A stretch of 64,000 nucleotides of DNA from an uncultured Croceitalea sp. (GTDB taxonomy: Bacteria; Bacteroidota; Bacteroidia; Flavobacteriales; Flavobacteriaceae). This document shows positions 1,128 to 19,406 of this stretch, one piece after another. The notes under the pieces are model-generated. The model was not told where the DNA came from and searched no databases. It saw only the letters and a program-made list of their open reading frames with translations. The stretch spans positions 186,001 to 250,000 of the forward strand of contig CANNDD010000003.1 in NCBI GenBank assembly GCA_947503285.1, written 5' to 3'. A program made the position numbers and the translations under genes. Every line of letters starts with the position of its first letter. The stretch's first letter is position 1.

Positions 1128-1169
1128 GGTCTTGGGCCTTGGGCCTTGGGTCTTGGGTCTTGGGTCTTA
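1128..1169. repeat. Tandem heptanucleotide array, six copies of GGYCTTR
   Basis: Six back-to-back 7-bp units, read as GGTCTTG, GGCCTTG, GGCCTTG, GGTCTTG, GGTCTTG, GGTCTTA. The complement strand reads CAAGRCC. It lies between the purL stop and the next start codon. Its unit resembles the looser AAGANTN heptads flanking the four-helix gene at 9581-9995. Confidence 0.85.
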
Positions 1170-5842: not shown

Positions 5843-8248
5843 ATGAAGCGACATATCAATAAAGTTGCCGTAATCGGTTCTGGTATCATGGGCAGCGGTA
5901 TCGCATGCCATTTTGCCAATATCGGAGTCGAAGTTTTACTATTGGATATTGTTCCAAGGGAGTTGAATGATAAAGAAAAAGCGAAGGGTCTCTCCCTCAA
6001 CGACAAGGTAGTTAGAAATCGCTTGGTCAATGAGGCGCTTACAACTGCCCTTAAATCAAAACCTTCGCCCATTTACCACCAAAAGTTCGCCCAGCGGATT
6101 ACCACGGGCAATTTAGAGGACGATATTGCAAAAGTAGCCCAAGTAGACTGGATCATTGAGGTCGTAGTGGAGCGATTGGATATCAAAAAACAGGTGTTTG
6201 AAAATCTTGAAAAGTATAGAACACCCGGCACCTTGATCACTTCAAATACCTCGGGTATCCCGATTAAATTTATGAGTGAAGGTAGAAGTGATGACTTTCA
6301 GAAGCATTTCTGCGGAACCCACTTCTTTAATCCTGCACGTTATTTAAAACTTTTTGAGATTATTCCAGGTCCAAAGACCGACCCCTCAGTACTGGAGTTC
6401 TTGAACGGCTACGGCGAGCAATTTTTGGGCAAAACTTCAGTCGTGGCCAAAGATACGCCTGCTTTTATTGGTAACCGTATCGGTATTTTCAGTATTCAAA
6501 GCCTATTTCATGCGGTGAAAGAATTGGGAATGACGGTTGAGGAAGTAGATAAATTGACCGGACCCGTAATTGGTAGACCAAAATCGGCAACTTTCAGAAC
6601 TGTTGACGTTGTTGGGTTGGATACCCTGGTTCATGTGGCCACGGGAATTTCAGAAAATTGCCAAGATGACGAAAGGCACGAACTGTTCGCACTACCCGAT
6701 TTCATCAAGACTATGATGGAGAACAAGTGGCTAGGAAGTAAAACCGGACAGGGCTTTTATAAAAAGGTTAAAGGAGATAAGGGCAAAAGCGAGATTTTGA
6801 CCTTGGATTTGGGCACCATGGACTACCGCTCCAAGAAAAGCGCCAAGTTTGCCACCCTAGAGCTCACAAAAACCATTGACAATGTCATTGACCGCTTTAC
6901 GGTACTTACCGGTGGAAAAGACAAGGCTGGGGAGTTTTACAGAAAGAGTTTCGGACAATTGTTTGCTTATGTATCGCATCGTATTCCAGAAATTACGGAT
7001 GAACTGTACAAGATTGATGATGCCATGAAAGCTGGCTTTGGTTGGGAACACGGTCCTTTTCAAATTTGGGATGCCGTAGGTCTCGACAAAGGATTGGAAT
7101 TTATCGCAGCGGAAAATCAAGAAGCCGCCAAATGGGTCGGTGAAATGAAAGCTGCAGGAATGGATTCATTCTATTCGGTCAAAGATGGGGCGACCTACTT
7201 CTATGACATTCCGAAGAAAGAAATGGTAAAAATTCCCGGACAGGATGCCTTTATCATTTTGGATAACATTCGTAAATCCAAAGAAGTCTTTAAAAATAGC
7301 GGCGTCGTAATTGAAGATCTAGGTGATGGTATCTTGAACTGTGAGTTCCAATCTAAAATGAATACCATTGGTGGTGATGTTTTGGCAGGGCTAAATAAGG
7401 CTATCGACCTTGCCGAAAAAGATTTTCAGGGGTTGGTAGTCGGTAATCAAGCTGCTAACTTCTCTGTTGGCGCCAATATAGGTATGATATTCATGATGGC
7501 TGTCGAACAAGAGTACGATGAATTGAATAGGGCCATCAAAATGTTCCAAGACACGATGATGCGTATGCGTTATTCGTCCATACCCACAATTTCCGCACCA
7601 CACGGAATGACCTTGGGTGGAGGTTGTGAATTGTCATTACACGCCGATAAGGTCGTTGCCGCAGCGGAGACCTACATCGGATTGGTCGAATTTGGCGTTG
7701 GGGTGATTCCCGGTGGTGGTGGCTCAAAGGAGTTCGCCTTAAGGGCATCGGATTCCTTTAGAAAAGGGGATGTGGAATTGAATATCCTTCAAGAATACTT
7801 TTTGACCATTGGTATGGCCAAAGTATCAACATCCGCTTATGAAGCCTATGATTTAGGAATCCTTCAAAAAGGAAAGGACATTGTAGTCGTCAATAAAGAC
7901 AGACAAGTTGCAACCGCCAAGGCACATGCACAGTTAATGGCCGAAGCAGGTTATACTAGACCCCCAAGGCGTAACGATGTCAAGGTTTTGGGCAAGCAAG
8001 CGTTGGGAATGTTCTTAGTGGGAACGGATTCCATGGAAGCCAGTAGATATATCAGTGAACATGACAAGAAAATCGCCAATAAACTGGCTTATGTCATGGC
8101 CGGTGGAGATCTTTCAGAGCCAAGTTATGTATCAGAGCAATACCTTCTTGATATCGAACGGGAAGCGTTCTTATCACTCTGTACGGAGCGCAAAACCTTA
8201 GAACGTATCCAACATATGTTGAAGACGGGGAAACCTTTGCGCAACTAG
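5843..8248 (+). CDS. fadN: Bifunctional 3-hydroxyacyl-CoA dehydrogenase / enoyl-CoA hydratase
   Basis: An 801-aa beta-oxidation enzyme that hydrates trans-2-enoyl-CoA and oxidises the resulting 3-hydroxyacyl-CoA with NAD+. The order is dehydrogenase first: NAD-binding GSGIMGSGIACHFAN (residues 12-26), the HFFNPARYLKLFEIIPG signature (about 166-182), and the C-terminal dehydrogenase domain with GRPKSATFRTVDVVGLD; a crotonase domain follows at about 475-680 with GGGCELSLHADKV and GVIPGGGGSKE. This order is that of Bacillus FadN and unlike enterobacterial FadB, where the hydratase is first. It is 14 bp after marR and is followed by thiolase, as in the fadNAE arrangement. Confidence 0.93.
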   Translation: MKRHINKVAVIGSGIMGSGIACHFANIGVEVLLLDIVPRELNDKEKAKGLSLNDKVVRNRLVNEALTTALKSKPSPIYHQKFAQRITTGNLEDDIAKVAQVDWIIEVVVERLDIKKQVFENLEKYRTPGTLITSNTSGIPIKFMSEGRSDDFQKHFCGTHFFNPARYLKLFEIIPGPKTDPSVLEFLNGYGEQFLGKTSVVAKDTPAFIGNRIGIFSIQSLFHAVKELGMTVEEVDKLTGPVIGRPKSATFRTVDVVGLDTLVHVATGISENCQDDERHELFALPDFIKTMMENKWLGSKTGQGFYKKVKGDKGKSEILTLDLGTMDYRSKKSAKFATLELTKTIDNVIDRFTVLTGGKDKAGEFYRKSFGQLFAYVSHRIPEITDELYKIDDAMKAGFGWEHGPFQIWDAVGLDKGLEFIAAENQEAAKWVGEMKAAGMDSFYSVKDGATYFYDIPKKEMVKIPGQDAFIILDNIRKSKEVFKNSGVVIEDLGDGILNCEFQSKMNTIGGDVLAGLNKAIDLAEKDFQGLVVGNQAANFSVGANIGMIFMMAVEQEYDELNRAIKMFQDTMMRMRYSSIPTISAPHGMTLGGGCELSLHADKVVAAAETYIGLVEFGVGVIPGGGGSKEFALRASDSFRKGDVELNILQEYFLTIGMAKVSTSAYEAYDLGILQKGKDIVVVNKDRQVATAKAHAQLMAEAGYTRPPRRNDVKVLGKQALGMFLVGTDSMEASRYISEHDKKIANKLAYVMAGGDLSEPSYVSEQYLLDIEREAFLSLCTERKTLERIQHMLKTGKPLRN

Positions 8249-8382: not shown

Positions 8383-9573
8383 ATGAAAACAGCATACATA
8401 GTAAAAGGATATCGTACGGCAGTAGGGAAAGCTCCCAAGGGGGTCTTCCGATTTAAAAGAACCGATGAATTGGCGGCGGAGACCATTCAACACATGATGA
8501 AAGAACTGCCCCAACTGGACAAAAAGCGTATTGATGACGTTATTGTAGGTAATGCGATGCCCGAAGGATCCCAGGGTCTGAATATGGCGCGACTAATATC
8601 GTTGATGGGGTTGGATATTGTTGATGTTCCCGGAGTCACCGTAAACCGTTTTTGTTCTTCTGGAATAGAAACTATTGGTATCGCGACCGCAAAGATTCAA
8701 GCCGGTATGGCAGATTGCATCATTGCTGGTGGTGCAGAAAGCATGAGTGCGGTTCCCATGACAGGTTATAAGACCGAATTGAACTATGATATTGTAAAGG
8801 CGGGTCATGAAGACTATTACTGGGGTATGGGCAATACGGCTGAAGCTGTCGCCCAAGAGTACAAGGTTTCGCGTGAAGATCAAGACGAATTTGCTTATAA
8901 TTCACACATGAAAGCACTTCGTGCGCAGGCCGAAGACCGTTTTCAAGATCAAATAGTTCCTATTGAAGTGGAACAGACTTTCGTAGGGCCTGATGGAAAA
9001 AAAGCAACCAAAAAATATACGGTTACTAAAGATGAAGGTCCAAGAAAAGGCACTTCTACGGAGGTATTGAATAAGCTGCGACCCGTATTTGCTGCAAACG
9101 GCAGTGTTACTGCTGGTAATTCTTCACAAATGAGTGATGGCGCTGCATTCGTAATGGTCGTAAGCGAAGAACTCATGAAAGAACTCAATTTAGAGCCTAT
9201 TGCCCGATTGGTAAACTATGCAGCTGCCGGTGTACCGCCACGCATAATGGGTATCGGCCCTGTTGCAGCTGTGCCAAAGGCCCTCAAACAAGCTGGTCTA
9301 AAACAAGAAGATATTGAGTTGATCGAATTGAACGAAGCATTTGCGTCGCAATCCTTAGCCGTAATTCGTGAATTGGGCTTAAATCAAGATATCGTTAATG
9401 TGAATGGTGGTGCGATTGCGTTAGGGCATCCCTTGGGCTGTACCGGGGCGAAGTTATCGGTTCAATTGTTTGATGAAATGCGCAAGCGTAACATGCAAGG
9501 CAAGTATGGTATGGTAACGATGTGCGTGGGAACCGGTCAGGGTGCCGCGGGGATAATTGAATTCCTTAATTGA
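8383..9573 (+). CDS. fadA: Acetyl-CoA C-acyltransferase (thiolase)
   Basis: A 396-aa thiolase that cleaves 3-ketoacyl-CoA with CoA, the last step of each beta-oxidation round. All catalytic positions are present: nucleophile Cys91 in NRFCSSGIET, GGAESMS, NEAFASQ, His349 in GGAIALGHPLGCTGAK, and Cys381 in MCVGTGQGAAG. Length is normal. It sits in the middle of the fad run; its 5' leader carries a strong GC-rich hairpin. The next core enzyme, acyl-CoA dehydrogenase, starts 437 bp later with a small unrelated gene between. Confidence 0.95.
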   Translation: MKTAYIVKGYRTAVGKAPKGVFRFKRTDELAAETIQHMMKELPQLDKKRIDDVIVGNAMPEGSQGLNMARLISLMGLDIVDVPGVTVNRFCSSGIETIGIATAKIQAGMADCIIAGGAESMSAVPMTGYKTELNYDIVKAGHEDYYWGMGNTAEAVAQEYKVSREDQDEFAYNSHMKALRAQAEDRFQDQIVPIEVEQTFVGPDGKKATKKYTVTKDEGPRKGTSTEVLNKLRPVFAANGSVTAGNSSQMSDGAAFVMVVSEELMKELNLEPIARLVNYAAAGVPPRIMGIGPVAAVPKALKQAGLKQEDIELIELNEAFASQSLAVIRELGLNQDIVNVNGGAIALGHPLGCTGAKLSVQLFDEMRKRNMQGKYGMVTMCVGTGQGAAGIIEFLN

Positions 9574-9580
9574 GGGATGC

Positions 9581-9608
9581 AAGAATTTAGAATCAAGATG
9601 TAAGACTG
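9581..9608. repeat. Degenerate heptad array, left flank of S23 gene
   Basis: Four in-register 7-bp units: AAGAATT, TAGAATC, AAGATGT, AAGACTG, immediately after the fadA stop and just before the S23 start. An 11-bp part (AGAATCAAGAT, 9589-9599) has its exact reverse complement at 9984-9994, beyond the gene. Confidence 0.65.
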
Positions 9609-9610
9609 CA

Positions 9611-9970
9611 GTGACAAGGCATAATTTTAAAAAGCTGAAAATTTGGGAAGAAGGAATGAATTTGGTGGATGAAACCTACAAATTGATAGCAACATTTCCA
9701 GATTCTGAAAGGTTTAATTTGATTTCTCAACTTGCTAGATGCTCTGTATCAATTCCCTCAAATATTGCTGAAGGAACCAGTAAATCAACTGATAAACATT
9801 TTAATAAATATATTGAAGATAGTTTGGGTTCTACATTTGAATGGGAAACACAGCTTATAGTTGCATATCGTCAAGGTTATATTGAAAAAGAAAAATTTAA
9901 TTTATTAGAAAATAAAATTCAACAATTACAGAAAATGATTTCGGGGTTTAAAGGTGGATTGAAATTTTAG
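9611..9970 (+). CDS. Four-helix bundle protein, S23/IVP family
   Basis: About 119 aa from a GTG start at 9611 (RHNFKKLKIWEEGMNLVDE). The family's conserved core is clear: FPDSERFNLISQLARCSVSIPSNIAEGTS, then DSLGSTFEWETQLIVAYRQGYI. Relatives were first found encoded in intervening sequences of 23S rRNA genes and form pentameric four-helix bundles; function is not settled. An in-frame ATG at 9557 would overlap fadA and is unlikely. The gene is visibly more AT-rich than its neighbours, interrupts the fadA-fadE pair, and is flanked by inverted heptad arrays, which suggests it came in as a unit. Confidence 0.88.
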   Translation: MTRHNFKKLKIWEEGMNLVDETYKLIATFPDSERFNLISQLARCSVSIPSNIAEGTSKSTDKHFNKYIEDSLGSTFEWETQLIVAYRQGYIEKEKFNLLENKIQQLQKMISGFKGGLKF

Positions 9971-9995
9971 TCCTGCCTCTAGAATCTTGATTCTT
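9968..9995. repeat. Degenerate heptad array, right flank of S23 gene (inverted)
   Basis: Read on the minus strand from 9995 the units are AAGAATC, AAGATTC, TAGAGGC, AGGACTA. They mirror the left array; ATCTTGATTCT at 9984-9994 is the exact reverse complement of 9589-9599. The array begins at the S23 stop codon and ends 15 bp before the fadE start. Confidence 0.65.
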
Positions 9996-10010
9996 CAAAA
10001 TCTTATAAAA

Positions 10011-11816
10011 ATGGAAACCATAGAAAAAGAAATATTACGAGGAGGTCAATTTTTGGTCAAGGAGACCAATTGTGAAGATGTATTCACCTTAGAAGACCTT
10101 AATGAAGAACAAAAAATGATGCGCGAAAGCACCAAAGAGTTCGTTGACAGGGAGCTTTGGGCGCATTGGGAACGATTTGAGAAAAAAGATTACGCCTACA
10201 CTGAAGAAACCATGCGCAAAGCAGGTGAACTGGGCTTGTTAAGTGTTGCCGTACCAGAATCGTATGGTGGTATGGGAATGGGCTTTGTTTCCACTATGTT
10301 GGTCTGTGATTACATTTCTGGCGCAACAGGTTCTTTTAGTACCGCTTTTGGGGCACATACGGGAATTGGCACCATGCCGATTACCTTATATGGAACAGAA
10401 GAACAAAAGCAAAAATACGTGCCGAAACTAGCTTCTGGTGAATGGTTTGGTGCTTACTGTCTAACGGAACCAGGAGCCGGTTCTGACGCCAACTCTGGTA
10501 AGACCAAAGCAGTTCTTTCAGAAGATGGCAAACACTATAGTATTACTGGACAGAAAATGTGGATCTCCAATGCCGGATTTTGTAATCTTTTTATTGTTTT
10601 TGCAAGAATAGAAGACGACAAGAACATTACCGGATTTATTGTTGAAAATGACCCATCAAACGGAATCACCCTAGGTGATGAAGAAAAGAAGTTGGGCATT
10701 CACTCCTCCTCTACTCGTCAGGTATTTTTTAATGAAACCAAAGTTCCCGTTGAGAATATGCTTTCAGAGCGTGGTAATGGGTTTAAAATTGCCATGAACG
10801 CCTTGAATGTAGGTCGCATCAAGTTGGCTGCTGCCTGTTTAGAGGCACAACGTCGAGTGATTAATGAAGCCACCAAGTATGCCAACGAGCGAATCCAGTT
10901 CAAGACGCCTATTATGAATTTTGGGGCTATAAGAGCGAAAATCGCTGATATGGCCACCAACGCCTATGTAGATGAAGCAGCATGTTATCGTGCAGCCAAA
11001 AACATCGAAGACCGAATCGCTATTCGCGAGGCAGAGGGAAATACCCACCAAGAAGCCGAATTGAAAGGCGTTGAAGAATATGCCATAGAATGTTCCATCT
11101 TAAAAGTAGCGGTTTCAGAGCATGTACAACAGACAACTGATGAGGGTATCCAAATCTTTGGCGGTATGGGCTTTAGTGCAGATACCCCAATGGAGTCTGC
11201 ATGGAGGGATGCCCGTATTTCAAGAATCTATGAGGGTACCAATGAGATCAATCGCATGTTGGCGGTTGGTATGTTGGTTAAAAAAGCCATGAAGGGCCAT
11301 GTAGATTTATTGGGGCCGGCAACAGCAGTGGGCGAAGAATTAATGGGAATCCCATCATTTGATACCCCTGACTTTTCTGAATTATTTGCTGAAGAAAAAG
11401 ACTTGATCAAACGCCTGAAAAAAGTATTCTTAATGGTAGCTGGTAGCGCCGTACAAAAATTCGGTCCGCAATTAGAGGAGCACCAACAGTTATTAATGGC
11501 CGCTTCTGACATTTTGATTCAAGTGTATCTGGCGGAATCCGCTATTTTAAGAACAGAGAAAAATGCCAAGCGCTCTGGTGAAGACTCACAGGCAACTCAA
11601 ATAGCGATGTCAAAATTGTATTTATACCGTGCCACGGATACCGTAATCCAAAAAGGGAAAGAAGCCATTGTATCTTTTGCTGAAGGTGACGAACAGCGCA
11701 TGATGCTTATGGGCCTCAAACGTTTTACGAAATATACGAATCAACCCAATGTGGTGGCACTGCGCACACAAATCGCAGATAAAGTGGCTGCAGATAACGG
11801 GTATACCTTTGACTAA
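10011..11816 (+). CDS. fadE: Acyl-CoA dehydrogenase
   Basis: A flavoenzyme of about 601 aa that makes the trans-2 double bond in acyl-CoA, the first oxidative step of beta-oxidation. The start at 10011 (METIEKEILRGGQF) is preferred to an upstream non-ATG codon at 9987. Features in order: N-terminal helical domain with PESYGGMGMGF, the middle beta domain with CLTEPGAGSD and MWISNAGF, the FAD-binding C-terminal domain with QIFGGMGFS and the catalytic-glutamate region RISRIYEGTNEINRM, then an extra helical C-terminal extension of about 170 aa. This longer form is common beside FadN/FadA in Bacillus-like operons. It is followed by a strong terminator. Confidence 0.94.
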   Translation: METIEKEILRGGQFLVKETNCEDVFTLEDLNEEQKMMRESTKEFVDRELWAHWERFEKKDYAYTEETMRKAGELGLLSVAVPESYGGMGMGFVSTMLVCDYISGATGSFSTAFGAHTGIGTMPITLYGTEEQKQKYVPKLASGEWFGAYCLTEPGAGSDANSGKTKAVLSEDGKHYSITGQKMWISNAGFCNLFIVFARIEDDKNITGFIVENDPSNGITLGDEEKKLGIHSSSTRQVFFNETKVPVENMLSERGNGFKIAMNALNVGRIKLAAACLEAQRRVINEATKYANERIQFKTPIMNFGAIRAKIADMATNAYVDEAACYRAAKNIEDRIAIREAEGNTHQEAELKGVEEYAIECSILKVAVSEHVQQTTDEGIQIFGGMGFSADTPMESAWRDARISRIYEGTNEINRMLAVGMLVKKAMKGHVDLLGPATAVGEELMGIPSFDTPDFSELFAEEKDLIKRLKKVFLMVAGSAVQKFGPQLEEHQQLLMAASDILIQVYLAESAILRTEKNAKRSGEDSQATQIAMSKLYLYRATDTVIQKGKEAIVSFAEGDEQRMMLMGLKRFTKYTNQPNVVALRTQIADKVAADNGYTFD

Positions 11817-16900: not shown

Positions 16901-19406
16901 CATCGACATCACCGATGGGGCCACATTAACTATTCTGAATGACGATGACATATCTATATCGGTTAACGACCCTTCGGTAACGGAAGGCGATGCTGGTACG
17001 ACTACCTTACAATTTACGGTCTCTCTAGATGCACCTGCCCCTGCAGGTGGAGCCACGATTGACTATGCAACTTCAGATGGATCAGCAACTGCTGGGTCAG
17101 ATTATACAGGTATTGTTACCTCTACCCTCTCCTTTCTAGCGGGAGAATCAAGCAAAACGGTGGATGTTACCGTAGCCGGTGATGAAACCGTTGAGGTCGA
17201 TGAGACTTTGACCTTAACTTTGTCTAATCCTACGGGTACCGATGTAGTTATTTCTGATGCTACGGGTACCGGTACCATTACCAATGATGACCAAGCTACG
17301 GTAACGATAGCTGATGTATCGGTAAATGAAAACAATGGTACGGCAACGATTACCGTTATTGCCGATAATGCGGTAGACGGAGGCTTTGACGTAGACGTGA
17401 GTACTGCTGATGGAACAGCTACCACTGCGGATAGTGATTATACGGCTGTAACTTCCCAGACCTTGACTTTTGCAGGTACTGCAAGTGAGTCAGAGACCTT
17501 CAATATTACCATTGGAGGGGATACCAAAGTGGAAGCGGACGAGACGGTATCCATCAGCATGAGCGGCTTAAGTCCTGCAACGGTGGCCTCCGGCGATATT
17601 GATATTACGGACGGGGCAACCTTAATAATCAACAATGATGATGTTGCCACTCTTTCCATAGCAGCCACTGCCCAAGCGGCAGAAGATGCTACCGACGGTT
17701 TATTCACAATTACGACAAGCAATCCATTTAGCAGTGCGGTGACCTTGAATATAACGGTTACTGGTTCAGCAACAGAAGGCACAGATTATGCGACTATCGG
17801 AACAAGTCTGGTGTTTCCTGCGAATCAAACTATGGTGACCGTTCCCGTTGACGTAACTGCTGATAACATAATAGAAGGTAGCGAAACGGTAATTTTAACA
17901 TTGACCGGAACAAATAACCTAGACGCTGTCATCGGTGCAACCGATAACGCAACCATCACCATAGTTGATGATGATTTGTCTTCAGTGACTTCAGTTTCAG
18001 TTCCTACAGATGGAAATTATGGAATTGGACAGCACTTAGACTTTATGGTAACCTTTAGCGATCCTATTACGATTACGGGTAGTCCATCAATAGAACTTAC
18101 CATTGGTACTACTACCGTACAAGCAGTTTTGAGTGGCGCAGTAACAAATTCAATTACGGCCCCGTTCCGATATACTATTGTTACGGGAGATTTGGATACT
18201 GATGGTATTATGGTAGGCGCATTGGTTACCAATGGGGGAACGATTACGGATGCAGCAGGCAATAATACAGATTTGACCTTAAATGCCGTAAGTTCCACAA
18301 CCGGGGTACTCGTAGATGCCGTGGCCCCTATGGGTTATGCCGTGGTAATCGATCAAGATCCAATTAATGAGAGTAACGAAAATTCCGTAAGTTTTACATT
18401 TTCAGGCGCCGAGGTAGGTTCCGTATATGAATATGCAATTTCCAGTAGTGAAGGCGGAACGACTATTTCAGGATTAGGTACCATATCCGAATCAGGGCAA
18501 ACCATATCAGGAATCAATTTAAGTGGCCTTAACAATGGTACCATCCTATTGAACGTAACGCTTACGGATGGCAATGGCAATATGGGAGATACCGCCACTG
18601 ATACTGCTATAAAAGGTGTTGATACGGATAACGATGGTATAGAAGATACCACGGACACCGATGACGACAATGATGGCACAGAAGACACGGAGGACGCGTT
18701 TCCGTTAGACGATACCGAAGATACCGACACCGACGGTGATGGCATAGGGGACAATGCTGATACTGACGATGATGGCGATGGGGTAAATGACAATGAAGAT
18801 GCCTTTCCATTAGATGATACCGAAGATAACGACACCGATGGTGATGGCATTGGCGATAATGCCGATACCGATGATGATAACGATGGTGTTGACGATACCG
18901 AGGATGCCTTTCCGTTGGATGATACCGAAGATACCGACACCGATGGTGATGGCATAGGTGATAATGCAGACGATGATGATGACAATGATGGAGTCAACGA
19001 TAGTGAGGATGCTTTTCCGTTGGATGATACCGAGGATACCGATACCGATGGTGATGGTATTGGAAATAATGCCGATACCGACGATGATAATGATGGCATA
19101 TTGGATGTCAATGATTCAGAACCACTAGTACCCAATAATTCCGTAAGTATCGCAGAGGCCATGACGCCAAACGGTGATGGAATAAATGACAATTGGATTA
19201 TTGAAGGAATCGAAAATTACCCCAATAACACTGTCAGGGTTTATAACCGAGGCGGAAGGGAAATATTCAGTGAAAATGGGTACCAGAATACTTGGGATGG
19301 TAGTCATAATGGTTCAGGAAGGGTTCCTGCTGGATCCTATTACTACGCCATAGATCTTGGAGAGGGCTCCACTCCGAAAACCGGATGGATATTCATCAAT
19401 TATTAA
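13953..19406 (+). CDS. Calx-beta / thrombospondin-3 repeat adhesin with T9SS type B C-terminal domain
   Basis: An 1817-aa secreted surface protein. Signal peptide about residues 1-31 (ending IFAQ). Then a pre-peptidase-like beta domain (about 33-150), a DUF-like beta region, a cadherin-like domain (about 305-425), about eight Calx-beta domains (about 428-1340, each ending in a DD-rich strand such as IINNDD), an Ig-like domain (about 1345-1450), four 35-residue thrombospondin type 3 units rich in DxDGDGIGDN (about 1556-1723), and a gliding-motility-type C-terminal domain (AEAMTPNGDGINDNW to WIFINY, about 1734-1817). The last directs type B T9SS export and anchoring. Calx-beta and TSP3 repeats bind Ca2+, so a calcium-stiffened adhesin is likely. 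A PorP/SprF gene follows at once. Confidence 0.93.
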   Translation: MNKLIPNKSLSLIIIRFLFLFIMLIGTEIFAQAETEPNGTVSQSGTQTVSAQGTITGDVCLGGGCPAADPTDFWNISDGSSGTFIATWGDNVQVTLFTYTTSDRNTAPSSLVLTSGVQQTLSASSFYSISVQFVSISVFTSYSVALSGTSLPSASAQTIDFESEPFVEGADFGSAIYTSGNIRLTYSSGNFFEDTDNGFGNSNGLSMLNFTANETLTIETIDGTEVDFQSFFLTNFFGNNASIQGFRDGGSTGTQTIGFPAAGLSGVVTLTNSIFDNVDRAVVTFAGGAFDVVDQFVFVAATPTNTPPTASSFTAANGPFENLTYTFSTSDFGYFDTDGDLLTNLLIEVIPTTGTLYVDADGGDDFDTGEQLTNGGTVSLADLNAGNLQYIQNGSTNTSFQFEVNDGTDNSTGNYVSTLNVTPIPTVTLSVSPTSRFESITTPANITATLSNTYGANVTVNLAFSGTATGGGLDYTLGSSAITINAGATSNSTTITNVNDAIFEGNESVVIDITSVTNGTENGTQQVTYTISDDETPPNVVFELLSIYDPTSENGGVAYVSAELDASSGVTTTVPLSFSGTATQGDDYNVSSSFIVIAAGDVKDSIAITGINDTLFEGDESIVIDMGSPTNATELGVQQVSLTLSDDDLNTAASVNDPSVTEGDAGTTTLQFTVSLDAPAPAGGATIDYATSDGSATAGSDYTGIGTTTLSFLAGETSKTVDVTITGDDEVERNETLTLTLSNPTGTNVLIADATGTGTINNDDQATVTIADVSVNENNGTATITVIADNAVDGGFDVDVSTADGTATTADSDYTAVTSQTLTFAGAASESETFNITIGGDTKVEADETVSISMSGLSPAMVASGDIDITDGATLIINNDDQATVTIANVSGNEDDGAITVTVMVDNAVDGGFDVDLSTVDGTATTADSDYSAVTAQTLTFTGTASETETFTVTPTADATPEPDETVIIGMSGLSPSTVASGDIDITDGATLTILNDDDISISVNDPSVTEGDAGTTTLQFTVSLDAPAPAGGATIDYATSDGSATAGSDYTGIVTSTLSFLAGESSKTVDVTVAGDETVEVDETLTLTLSNPTGTDVVISDATGTGTITNDDQATVTIADVSVNENNGTATITVIADNAVDGGFDVDVSTADGTATTADSDYTAVTSQTLTFAGTASESETFNITIGGDTKVEADETVSISMSGLSPATVASGDIDITDGATLIINNDDVATLSIAATAQAAEDATDGLFTITTSNPFSSAVTLNITVTGSATEGTDYATIGTSLVFPANQTMVTVPVDVTADNIIEGSETVILTLTGTNNLDAVIGATDNATITIVDDDLSSVTSVSVPTDGNYGIGQHLDFMVTFSDPITITGSPSIELTIGTTTVQAVLSGAVTNSITAPFRYTIVTGDLDTDGIMVGALVTNGGTITDAAGNNTDLTLNAVSSTTGVLVDAVAPMGYAVVIDQDPINESNENSVSFTFSGAEVGSVYEYAISSSEGGTTISGLGTISESGQTISGINLSGLNNGTILLNVTLTDGNGNMGDTATDTAIKGVDTDNDGIEDTTDTDDDNDGTEDTEDAFPLDDTEDTDTDGDGIGDNADTDDDGDGVNDNEDAFPLDDTEDNDTDGDGIGDNADTDDDNDGVDDTEDAFPLDDTEDTDTDGDGIGDNADDDDDNDGVNDSEDAFPLDDTEDTDTDGDGIGNNADTDDDNDGILDVNDSEPLVPNNSVSIAEAMTPNGDGINDNWIIEGIENYPNNTVRVYNRGGREIFSENGYQNTWDGSHNGSGRVPAGSYYYAIDLGEGSTPKTGWIFINY
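15911..17642 (+). repeat. Internal 1047-bp period duplication in the adhesin
   Basis: Bases 15911-16595 recur at 16958-17642 at a constant offset of 1047 bp (349 codons) with no net indel. The domain order is A-B-C-A'-B'. The B copies (from about 16250 and 17297) are nearly identical at DNA level, the A copies less so, which indicates recent duplication or gene conversion. Confidence 0.9.
18732..19151 (+). repeat. Four 105-bp thrombospondin-3 repeats
   Basis: Units begin at 18732, 18837, 18942 and 19047, exactly 105 bp apart, each encoding DGDGI-D-N-D-D followed, in the first three, by EDAFPLDDTED. A partial unit precedes them from about 18620. They form the Asp-rich Ca2+-binding stalk next to the sorting domain. 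Confidence 0.9.

Follow-up and report, generated by a model that had tools for sequence, protein, structure and literature searches.

How does a gene for an S23 protein come to lie within a fad operon, bracketed by two short arrays of heptanucleotides in inverted orientation, and do the gene and the arrays form a single unit? The question is raised by one locus in a stretch of 64,000 nucleotides from an uncultured Croceitalea sp. (hereafter the window, meaning this whole stretch), and it concerns a protein family, S23/IVP, for which we know of no settled function so far. The features involved are the following:

5843–8248, plus strand: fadJ-like gene, 3-hydroxyacyl-CoA dehydrogenase/enoyl-CoA hydratase (PF02737/PF00725/PF00378), upstream of fadA
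8383–9573, plus strand: fadA, thiolase (PF00108/PF02803), the upstream neighbour bounding the junction
9581–9608, plus strand: left heptad array, beginning 7 nt past the fadA stop; four in-register units of the AAGANNC type (AAGAATT 9581–9587, TAGAATC 9588–9594, AAGATGT 9595–9601, AAGACTG 9602–9608)
9611–9970, plus strand: S23/IVP gene with a likely GTG start, assigned by comparison with homologues; 119 codons and a stop; four-helix bundle by prediction
9975–10004, minus strand: right heptad array, inverted (TAGAGGC 9975–9981, AAGATTC 9982–9988, AAGAATC 9989–9995, then the 9-mer AAGATTTTG 9996–10004)
10011–11816, plus strand: fadE, acyl-CoA dehydrogenase (PF02771/PF02770/PF00441), ATG at 10011, the downstream neighbour bounding the junction

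The gene matches PF05635 (23S_rRNA_IVP, S23) with an E-value of 1.9e-35 and 121.8 bits, the Pfam gathering cut-off being 33.8. Its protein matches only this family in Pfam, with no transposase match, and the unit has no room for a second gene besides S23. The likely start is the GTG at 9611, the position where homologues from the genus begin with ATG-AGG-AGG/AGA-CAT-AAT, and the stop codon occupies 9968–9970. An earlier note on this DNA had described an S23 gene between fadA and fadE with AAGANTN-type units on both sides, and this is indeed what is found, except that the outer end of the right array is out of register because of the 9-mer at 9996–10004. The exact inversion of the core that it placed at 9984–9994 also holds: this segment pairs with 9589–9599 over 11 nt, a length matched by shuffled flanks in 5 of 5000 trials. 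It was equally right that the gene is more AT-rich than its neighbours, with a GC content of 29.4% versus 43–46% in the three fad genes and 41.5% in the window, the lowest value among the 45 called genes. At a pitch of 7 nt, the AGA core occurs four times on the sense strand of the left array and never on the opposite strand, and it forms a run of three on the minus strand of the right array. The left flank ranks its own right flank 4th among those of the 47 genus loci, and neither Tandem Repeats Finder nor a lag-7 scan of the window lists the two arrays, which are too weak. Taken alone, this locus is weak evidence, and the strength of the argument therefore rests on the whole set of loci.

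We regard it as rather probable that the S23 gene and its two inverted arrays constitute a small mobile element, probably selfish and devoid of transposase, whose S23 ring reads the repeat of its own element. In such an element, an S23/IVP gene would be enclosed by a pair of inverted arrays, each of about four to five heptads, and the whole would lodge, mostly in sense orientation, at gene junctions of operons without breaking any gene. S23 would form a pentameric ring that binds a single array, each subunit recognizing the core of one heptad, with two free bases left between successive cores. Once bound, the arrays might label the two ends of the element, which host enzymes would then copy or relocate, and arrays left behind after the loss of S23 would become S23-less hairpins of heptads.

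Arrays on both sides of S23 genes

The window's genome contains 16 S23 matches, and the eight genomes of the genus contain 47 above the family cut-off, with 1 to 16 per genome. In a survey of the phylum, S23 matches were found in 116 of 148 genomes (113 above the cut-off) versus none of 14 control genomes; phages gave no S23 match at E 1e-8.

The printed flanks of the 47 genus loci include many with heptad-like arrays, whose heptad differs between loci, and at many of these loci the same kind of heptad is found, inverted, on both sides of one S23 gene. The left and right flanks of the same locus score 13.36, versus 9.34 for mismatched flanks, and none of 10000 permutations gave a score as high, single loci varying so much that own-flank ranks span 1 to 47 of 47. 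The autocorrelation of the left flanks reaches 0.356, 0.340 and 0.327 at lags of 7, 14 and 21 nt, and no peak is seen in 210 control junctions (these include at least one duplicate, as those of the window and of locus L067 overlap). A period-7 z-score above 2 on at least one side characterizes 34 of the 47 S23 genes versus 17 of the 210 control junctions. Above 3, the counts are 20 of 47 and 7 of 210, several of these seven being S23-less heptad arrays.

The same excess, in each case with 0 of 10000 permutations as high, is obtained for the window's genome alone (16 loci, 12.6 for own pairs versus 9.4 for mismatched ones), for the phylum sample outside the genus (29 loci, namely the best-scoring ones with L005 left out, 15.2 versus 9.1), for 80 named loci (17.5 versus 10.0) and for 10 loci taken from the 25 plasmid records with an S23 match (22.4 versus 10.8). 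The named loci, nearly all from Bacteroidota by title, were picked by likeness to the fad S23, so that the share of fad junctions among them is biased; a few bear odd labels, taken as given (Bifidobacterium, Limnohabitans, Methanophagales and Betaproteobacteria bins). The plasmid loci come from Cyanobacteria (eight), Azospirillum (one) and Gemmatirosa (one), and their arrays include GGGAACA in Nostoc sp. C052 and a GGACAGA type in Azospirillum (Alphaproteobacteria). Two of the ten are at the mismatched level, those of Nostoc HK-01 (9.5) and Gemmatirosa (10.5), the right side of the latter reading as period 8. Globally, in all the sets examined, autocorrelation peaks at 7, 14 and 21 nt and the left and right arrays of a locus resemble each other more closely, on average, than do arrays taken from different loci, 44 of 156 individual loci having no significant array on either side. 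The unit made of S23 and its arrays is present in at least three bacterial phyla, a count from which Gemmatirosa (Gemmatimonadota) is excluded because its match is not above background.

Several of these loci have other features. Two contigs of one genus genome (L039 on C35 and L044 on C21 of G005) reach the same downstream gene start, presumably that of a hemW-like gene, with unlike S23 genes and unlike heptads, which reflects either a strain mixture or a duplication. A Nostoc plasmid carries an S23 unit that is flanked by two ribonucleotide reductase genes and antisense to them, its arrays being of the AGTAGGG type on either side (L265, 1183–1551). Another plasmid carries, besides an S23 unit, a weak heptad array TTGGTAATTGGTAATTGGTGAT between a DGR reverse transcriptase gene and avd (L275, 3602–3687). 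On cyanobacterial plasmids, S23 units are also found inside cas operons, between cas6 and cas4 in L264, and between cas10 and a gene of the cmr3 family in L269. These units could explain, as a hitchhiker, the published CRISPR-associated 23S IVP, which is named in a figure legend on CRISPR adaptation modules (PMC10910872).

Junctions with and without S23

The earlier note had set against insertion the case in which all relatives carry the gene in the same place. This is not what is seen. Among the eight genomes of the genus, the fadA-fadE junction carries S23 in four (G000, G001, G004 and G005), with a different S23 in G004; three lack it (G003, G006 and G007, with gaps of about 62, 16 and 16 nt, measured by eye) and the junction of G002 is cut off and unreadable. 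The comparison extends to 74 S23-less junctions read in relatives (78 of at least 174 matches were used, in four of which no upstream gene was found; these 78 cover 19 of 25 query segments, of which 15 represent sites of the window's genome, out of 16 there, and 10 represent other sites). In 26 of the 74, the gap is 20 nt or less or the genes overlap, for example at junctions that read as hisH-hisA (−4), hisB-hisH (−4) and serC-serA (3–6 nt). These junctions are too tight for arrays, which indicates that the repeats arrive with the gene. The suggestion that the gene is inserted at such repeats is therefore not supported, and the other proposal of the earlier note, a gene-plus-heptad unit that moves, gains support from close S23 relatives that carry the same kind of heptad at different junctions and from the S23-less junctions of the genus. 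We also rejected a heptad copied from the target site, because S23-less junctions of 3–6 nt or with overlapping genes contain no such sequence and because the heptad follows the S23 lineage. No target duplication was apparent by eye in the flanks and S23-less junctions, and no junction product was seen.

Some of the longer gaps among the 74 hold other inserts and some hold arrays (for example L081, L082, L124 and L127) or relics, such as one of 311 nt with an apparently shortened S23 (L130) and one of 146 nt (L149). The fadJ-fadA junction, occupied by S23 units in other species, carries in L124 and L127 a 65-nt S23-less hairpin of AAGAACC units, and G006 has a full unit at that junction. At another single junction without S23, GGTTGAT is repeated about five times in one genus genome (L082) and about twice in another (L081), a change of copy number in an array without its gene. 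A hairpin repeat (TTCGAGCGCAGTCGAGA ... TCTCGACTGCGCTCGAG) also recurs at gene junctions of the genus, for example in L084 and L092.

Arrays devoid of S23 are also found in the window's genome, examples being:

window, 1128–1168, plus strand: S23-less heptad array, GGTCTTG in 5.9 copies, between two same-strand genes ending at 1121 and starting at 1195 (presumably purL-like upstream and GNAT-like downstream)
L285, 13717–13924: S23-less arm-spacer-arm element, GGTTAGT in about 11 copies and TCCTTAC; long, near-perfect, with unlike sides
L293, 5426–5596: S23-less arm-spacer-arm element, GTTTATG in 6 copies and CCTAACA in about 10; long, near-perfect, with unlike sides

The first, which may be a relic or a solo array of the S23 kind, is the single period-7 array reported by the scan of the window. 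(Elsewhere in the window, a 1817-aa ORF contains a 105-bp tandem repeat of 3.9 copies at 18690–19096, in its Asp-rich part.) Over 400 kb of the window's genome, the scan lists nine period-7 non-coding arrays, distributed over seven places that are all away from S23; periods 5, 6, 8, 9 and 10 give none. The three S23 units of these 400 kb have arrays below the scan threshold, so that the solo arrays exceed them in strength. The same scan lists none in 300 kb of three S23-free genomes and none in 400 kb of four other S23-rich genomes. The junction L004, which we read as rplN-rplX, carries S23-less arrays at about 1480–1600: the left side has the AAGANTC type, and the right side has the CAAGTTCAAGCTC type, which is on the other strand.

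Two of the seven solo places are arm-spacer-arm elements, and such solo arrays raise the possibility that homologous recombination swaps S23 cassettes into arrays already in place, without any dedicated function for movement. However, L285 and L293 carry unlike heptads on their two sides, whereas S23-bearing units carry like ones, so that they would be poor acceptors; furthermore, relatives have tight S23-less junctions without arrays. This route seems improbable to us.

The heptad follows the S23 lineage rather than the site. Between loci at different junctions, the arrays have a similarity of 9.6 to 10.8 when S23 identity is below 60%, and of 15.5 for identities in the 60s (91 pairs), 20.3 in the 70s (36 pairs) and 25.9 in the 80s (10 pairs). 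Comparisons of the left array of one locus with the right array of another rise likewise, from 9.4 (identities in the 50s) to 22.4 (80s). Over 8090 pairs, the rank correlation between array similarity and S23 identity is just 0.12 because most pairs are distant, and 0 of 999 permutations are as high. One S23 lineage carries AGAATAG-type units at fadA-fadE and at junctions between genes of 232 and 526 aa, 273 and 314 aa, and 386 and 308 aa; in another, TTGTATA units are found at fadJ-fadA, on the upstream side of fadJ and at other places, one locus (L200) being an exception in that its left array reads in the wrong direction. At fadA-fadE itself, the AAGAATC units of the window accompany an S23 different from the one found there in the AGAATAG lineage. 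The AAGANTN heptad put forward in the earlier note is therefore not general, since other S23 lineages carry other heptads. Neighbour genes were predicted with a basic ORF caller, and a small number of short ORFs could be spurious.

On a tree of 148 of the 156 S23 proteins (length of at least 95, no X), 26 junction changes are counted over 87 rows and 20 junctions, versus a mean of 59.4 and a minimum of 54 in 200 shuffles; with few columns and many weak forks, the tree makes this count rough. As the changes are fewer than in shuffles, yet repeated, units keep a junction for long but change it repeatedly, and the clustering of junctions on the tree indicates that much of the spread is vertical. 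In 11 S23 pairs, pN/pS ranges from 0.09 to 0.25, with synonymous sites near saturation, and the S23 protein is under purifying selection. Duplication of S23 with its flanks, followed by drift, would also yield lineage-matched heptads without any binding.

Form of the repeats, proposed S23 ring and level of the match

In the S23 lineage of the window, 75 heptads (20 arms, 10 loci) give the motif nnCAAGA, in which the two free positions carry 0.04 and 0.09 bits of information, as compared with 2.02 and 1.38 bits for GA. The motifs of other clades are aaAtAGA (A), TTGTATA (B) and TGAnanG (D), that of clade C being weak, and motif scores beat those of shuffled arms in all five clades, which were hand-picked from the tree and the list. 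The core run is strand-specific and reads outside-in on both sides (means over 26 loci of two lineages: 4.1 versus 0.3 on the left, 3.8 versus 0.9 on the right). This form of the repeat suggests a protein reader. Reading the heptads as stop signals in all frames was rejected, the stop density being 0.0877 in left arms versus 0.0858 in shuffles.

It could be argued that the arrays are ordinary slippage repeats or signals for translation coupling, and that S23 is a host gene linked to them by site preference only. This would account for the S23-less arrays of the window's genome (the nine at seven places in 400 kb) and of some S23-less junctions, and a passage of PMC2670836 proposes that cyanobacterial heptads stabilise transcripts or couple translation. 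However, conservation is far stronger in the core than at the free positions, a contrast that copies made by slippage need not show; moreover, loci of one S23 lineage keep their heptad at different junctions, and arrays could not fit into 26 of the 74 S23-less junctions. We consider this explanation very doubtful.

The number of copies bears on the proposed reading by an S23 ring. Among the arms that reach a score of 9 (86 left and 85 right, out of at most 156), five is the most frequent copy number (39 of 86 left arms, 29 of 85 right arms), although this threshold can favour the five-core length and related loci are not independent. The commonest length of these arrays is 31 nt, which corresponds to five 3-base cores at a 7-nt pitch. 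Counted without threshold, core runs of 3, 4, 5 and 6 number 33, 33, 21 and 2 on the left and 41, 26, 26 and 6 on the right, a softer peak. When full heptads are scored with the profile of the other arm, the mode is four, with a drop at six; the peaks at five and four agree, since a 31-nt run of five cores comprises four complete heptads. Each of the two solved S23 sequences has one entry with 5 chains. An AlphaFold2 model of residues 2–119 of the window's S23 (monomer) has four helices and a mean pLDDT of 93.9, and Foldseek aligns it with 2rld (TM 0.82) and with the S23 structure 2gsc, released in 2006 (TM 0.94). The title of the 2gsc paper, as it stands in the references of PMC10053308, mentions five four-helix bundles. 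One heptad per subunit of the ring would be the simplest reading.

The predicted fold also resembles that of the DGR protein Avd, which is pentameric (4dwl, TM 0.80), and a chain of a DGR ribonucleoprotein (8ub7_E, TM 0.76), with weak E-values of 0.24 and 0.34, respectively. Homology between Avd and PF05635 is noted in a passage of PMC10053308. S23 might then act like Avd, together with a reverse transcriptase, and the element might move as cDNA, an RNA step that the sense orientation of the units would fit. However, a reverse transcriptase (PF00078) was found in only two of the eight genus genomes, one in each, versus S23 in all eight, two of the eight being less than 90% complete; that of the window's genome (G000) lies on contig C1 and the window on C3. 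Avd further differs in its 6% sequence identity in the Foldseek alignment with 4dwl and in that no reverse transcriptase is found on the window's contig. Such retro-mobility appears most improbable.

S23 is in sense orientation with both neighbours in all 45 genus loci where the two sides could be read; the same holds for 71 of 74 named loci and for 22 of 29 phylum loci, the remaining seven falling outside the same-strand frame, uncertainly so owing to short ORF calls. Both genes lie on one strand at 180 of the 210 control junctions. This sense bias fits selection against antisense inserts and an RNA step alike. An RNA step is central to another explanation, in which the unit is an intervening sequence borne by an operon: the two arrays would pair into a stem in the transcript, with the S23 ORF in the loop, a double-strand RNase would trim it, and pairing would keep the arrays matched. 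The precedent is provided by the intervening sequences of 23S rRNA in Coxiella and Leptospira, which, in the passage of PMC4990558 devoted to them, hold an S23 ORF between complementary ends, are cut by RNase III, have a patchy distribution and are suspected to be selfish or mobile. The window's unit resembles them in having complementary ends able to form a stem, as judged on the whole set, where RNA duplexes between own arms reach −34.7 versus −28.4 between mismatched arms (0 of 10000 permutations as low), and the sense orientation of the 45 genus loci and 71 named loci agrees with this explanation.

It differs from them by its location between protein genes, fadA and fadE, with no rRNA, and by its ends, which are heptads with a lineage-specific core, a structure that a stem does not need. 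Moreover, differences between arms lack the excess of G-U pairs over A-C mismatches that is expected under selection for an RNA stem (195 versus 190 in 46 of the 47 genus loci with lenient settings, 33 versus 36 in 38 of the 47 with strict ones), and the plasmid units include two that are antisense between two genes (L265 and L267) and one between opposed genes (L272), besides the seven uncertain phylum loci. Since the G-U versus A-C test is negative, selection for an RNA stem was not chosen as the lead model, and we hold it unlikely. The lack of G-U asymmetry and the antisense plasmid units make us lean to a match at the DNA level; likewise, the lack of asymmetry makes us favour a step on DNA over one on the transcript.

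Relation to known systems and consequences

Heptanucleotide repeats have already been described, as STRR in cyanobacteria (PMC2670836), as GGGAATC in Xanthomonas and GGGGATT in Nostoc (PMC4692102) and as TAACTGA in Beggiatoaceae and some Bacteroidetes (PMC4679880). Like the arrays described here, they are 7-nt tandem units that are mostly intergenic, and the 70 cases of two convergent GGGAATC arrays in Xanthomonas campestris (PMC4692102) share their inverted layout. X. campestris also encodes one of the solved S23 proteins, Xcc0516. In the passages concerned, these three papers treat heptad arrays as stand-alone repeats, G-quadruplexes or regulatory signals and name no agent that makes or uses them; S23 is not named in PMC4692102 and PMC4679880, according to a word search, nor in the passage of PMC2670836. 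In the open-access literature (preprints being outside the scope of the search), no paper linking S23 to heptads was found.

The closest parallel among mobile elements is provided by the RAYTs, in which the gene of a Y1 (HUH) transposase lies between short inverted repeats that match the protein, the REPs being single palindromes; REP/REPIN repeats also occur as copies without any RAYT gene. In the same way, the terminal inverted repeats of S23 units match the lineage of the protein and copies without gene are found. The differences are that the window's S23 has no Y1 (HUH) match, only PF05635, and that its ends are arrays of 7-nt units. Conventional insertion sequences likewise differ by the transposase, as no transposase match was obtained for the S23 gene, and no target duplication was apparent by eye. 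For the proposed working of the ring, the parallel is TRAP, an RNA-binding attenuation protein that is not mobile and whose fold is unrelated to S23. Its ring reads spaced triplets, and an S23 ring would similarly read a fixed core followed by two free bases, with a repeat number near the size of the ring. As the unit has neither the location of the 23S rRNA intervening sequences nor the enzyme of RAYT/REPIN systems or insertion sequences, it would represent a new kind of element, made of a protein and its cognate repeat.

A broader reading is possible, and we put it forward tentatively. S23 proteins would be pentameric readers of five-repeat arrays with a changeable protein-to-heptad code, and would define a transposase-free class of mobile elements spread over several phyla. 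The heptanucleotide repeats of cyanobacteria, Xanthomonas and Beggiatoaceae, which have long been puzzling, the S23 ORFs of intervening sequences and the S23 genes of cas operons would then be traces of this class, and Avd would be a domesticated relative.

The link between S23 and the heptads gives the protein family and the repeats a testable partner each. If the proposed explanation is true, a mobile element without known transposase enters operons of core metabolism while breaking no gene, fad here and, judging from the neighbour genes, presumably his, atp, met and ser elsewhere. S23 would then be a family of small proteins whose 7-base specificity appears to change together with its target.
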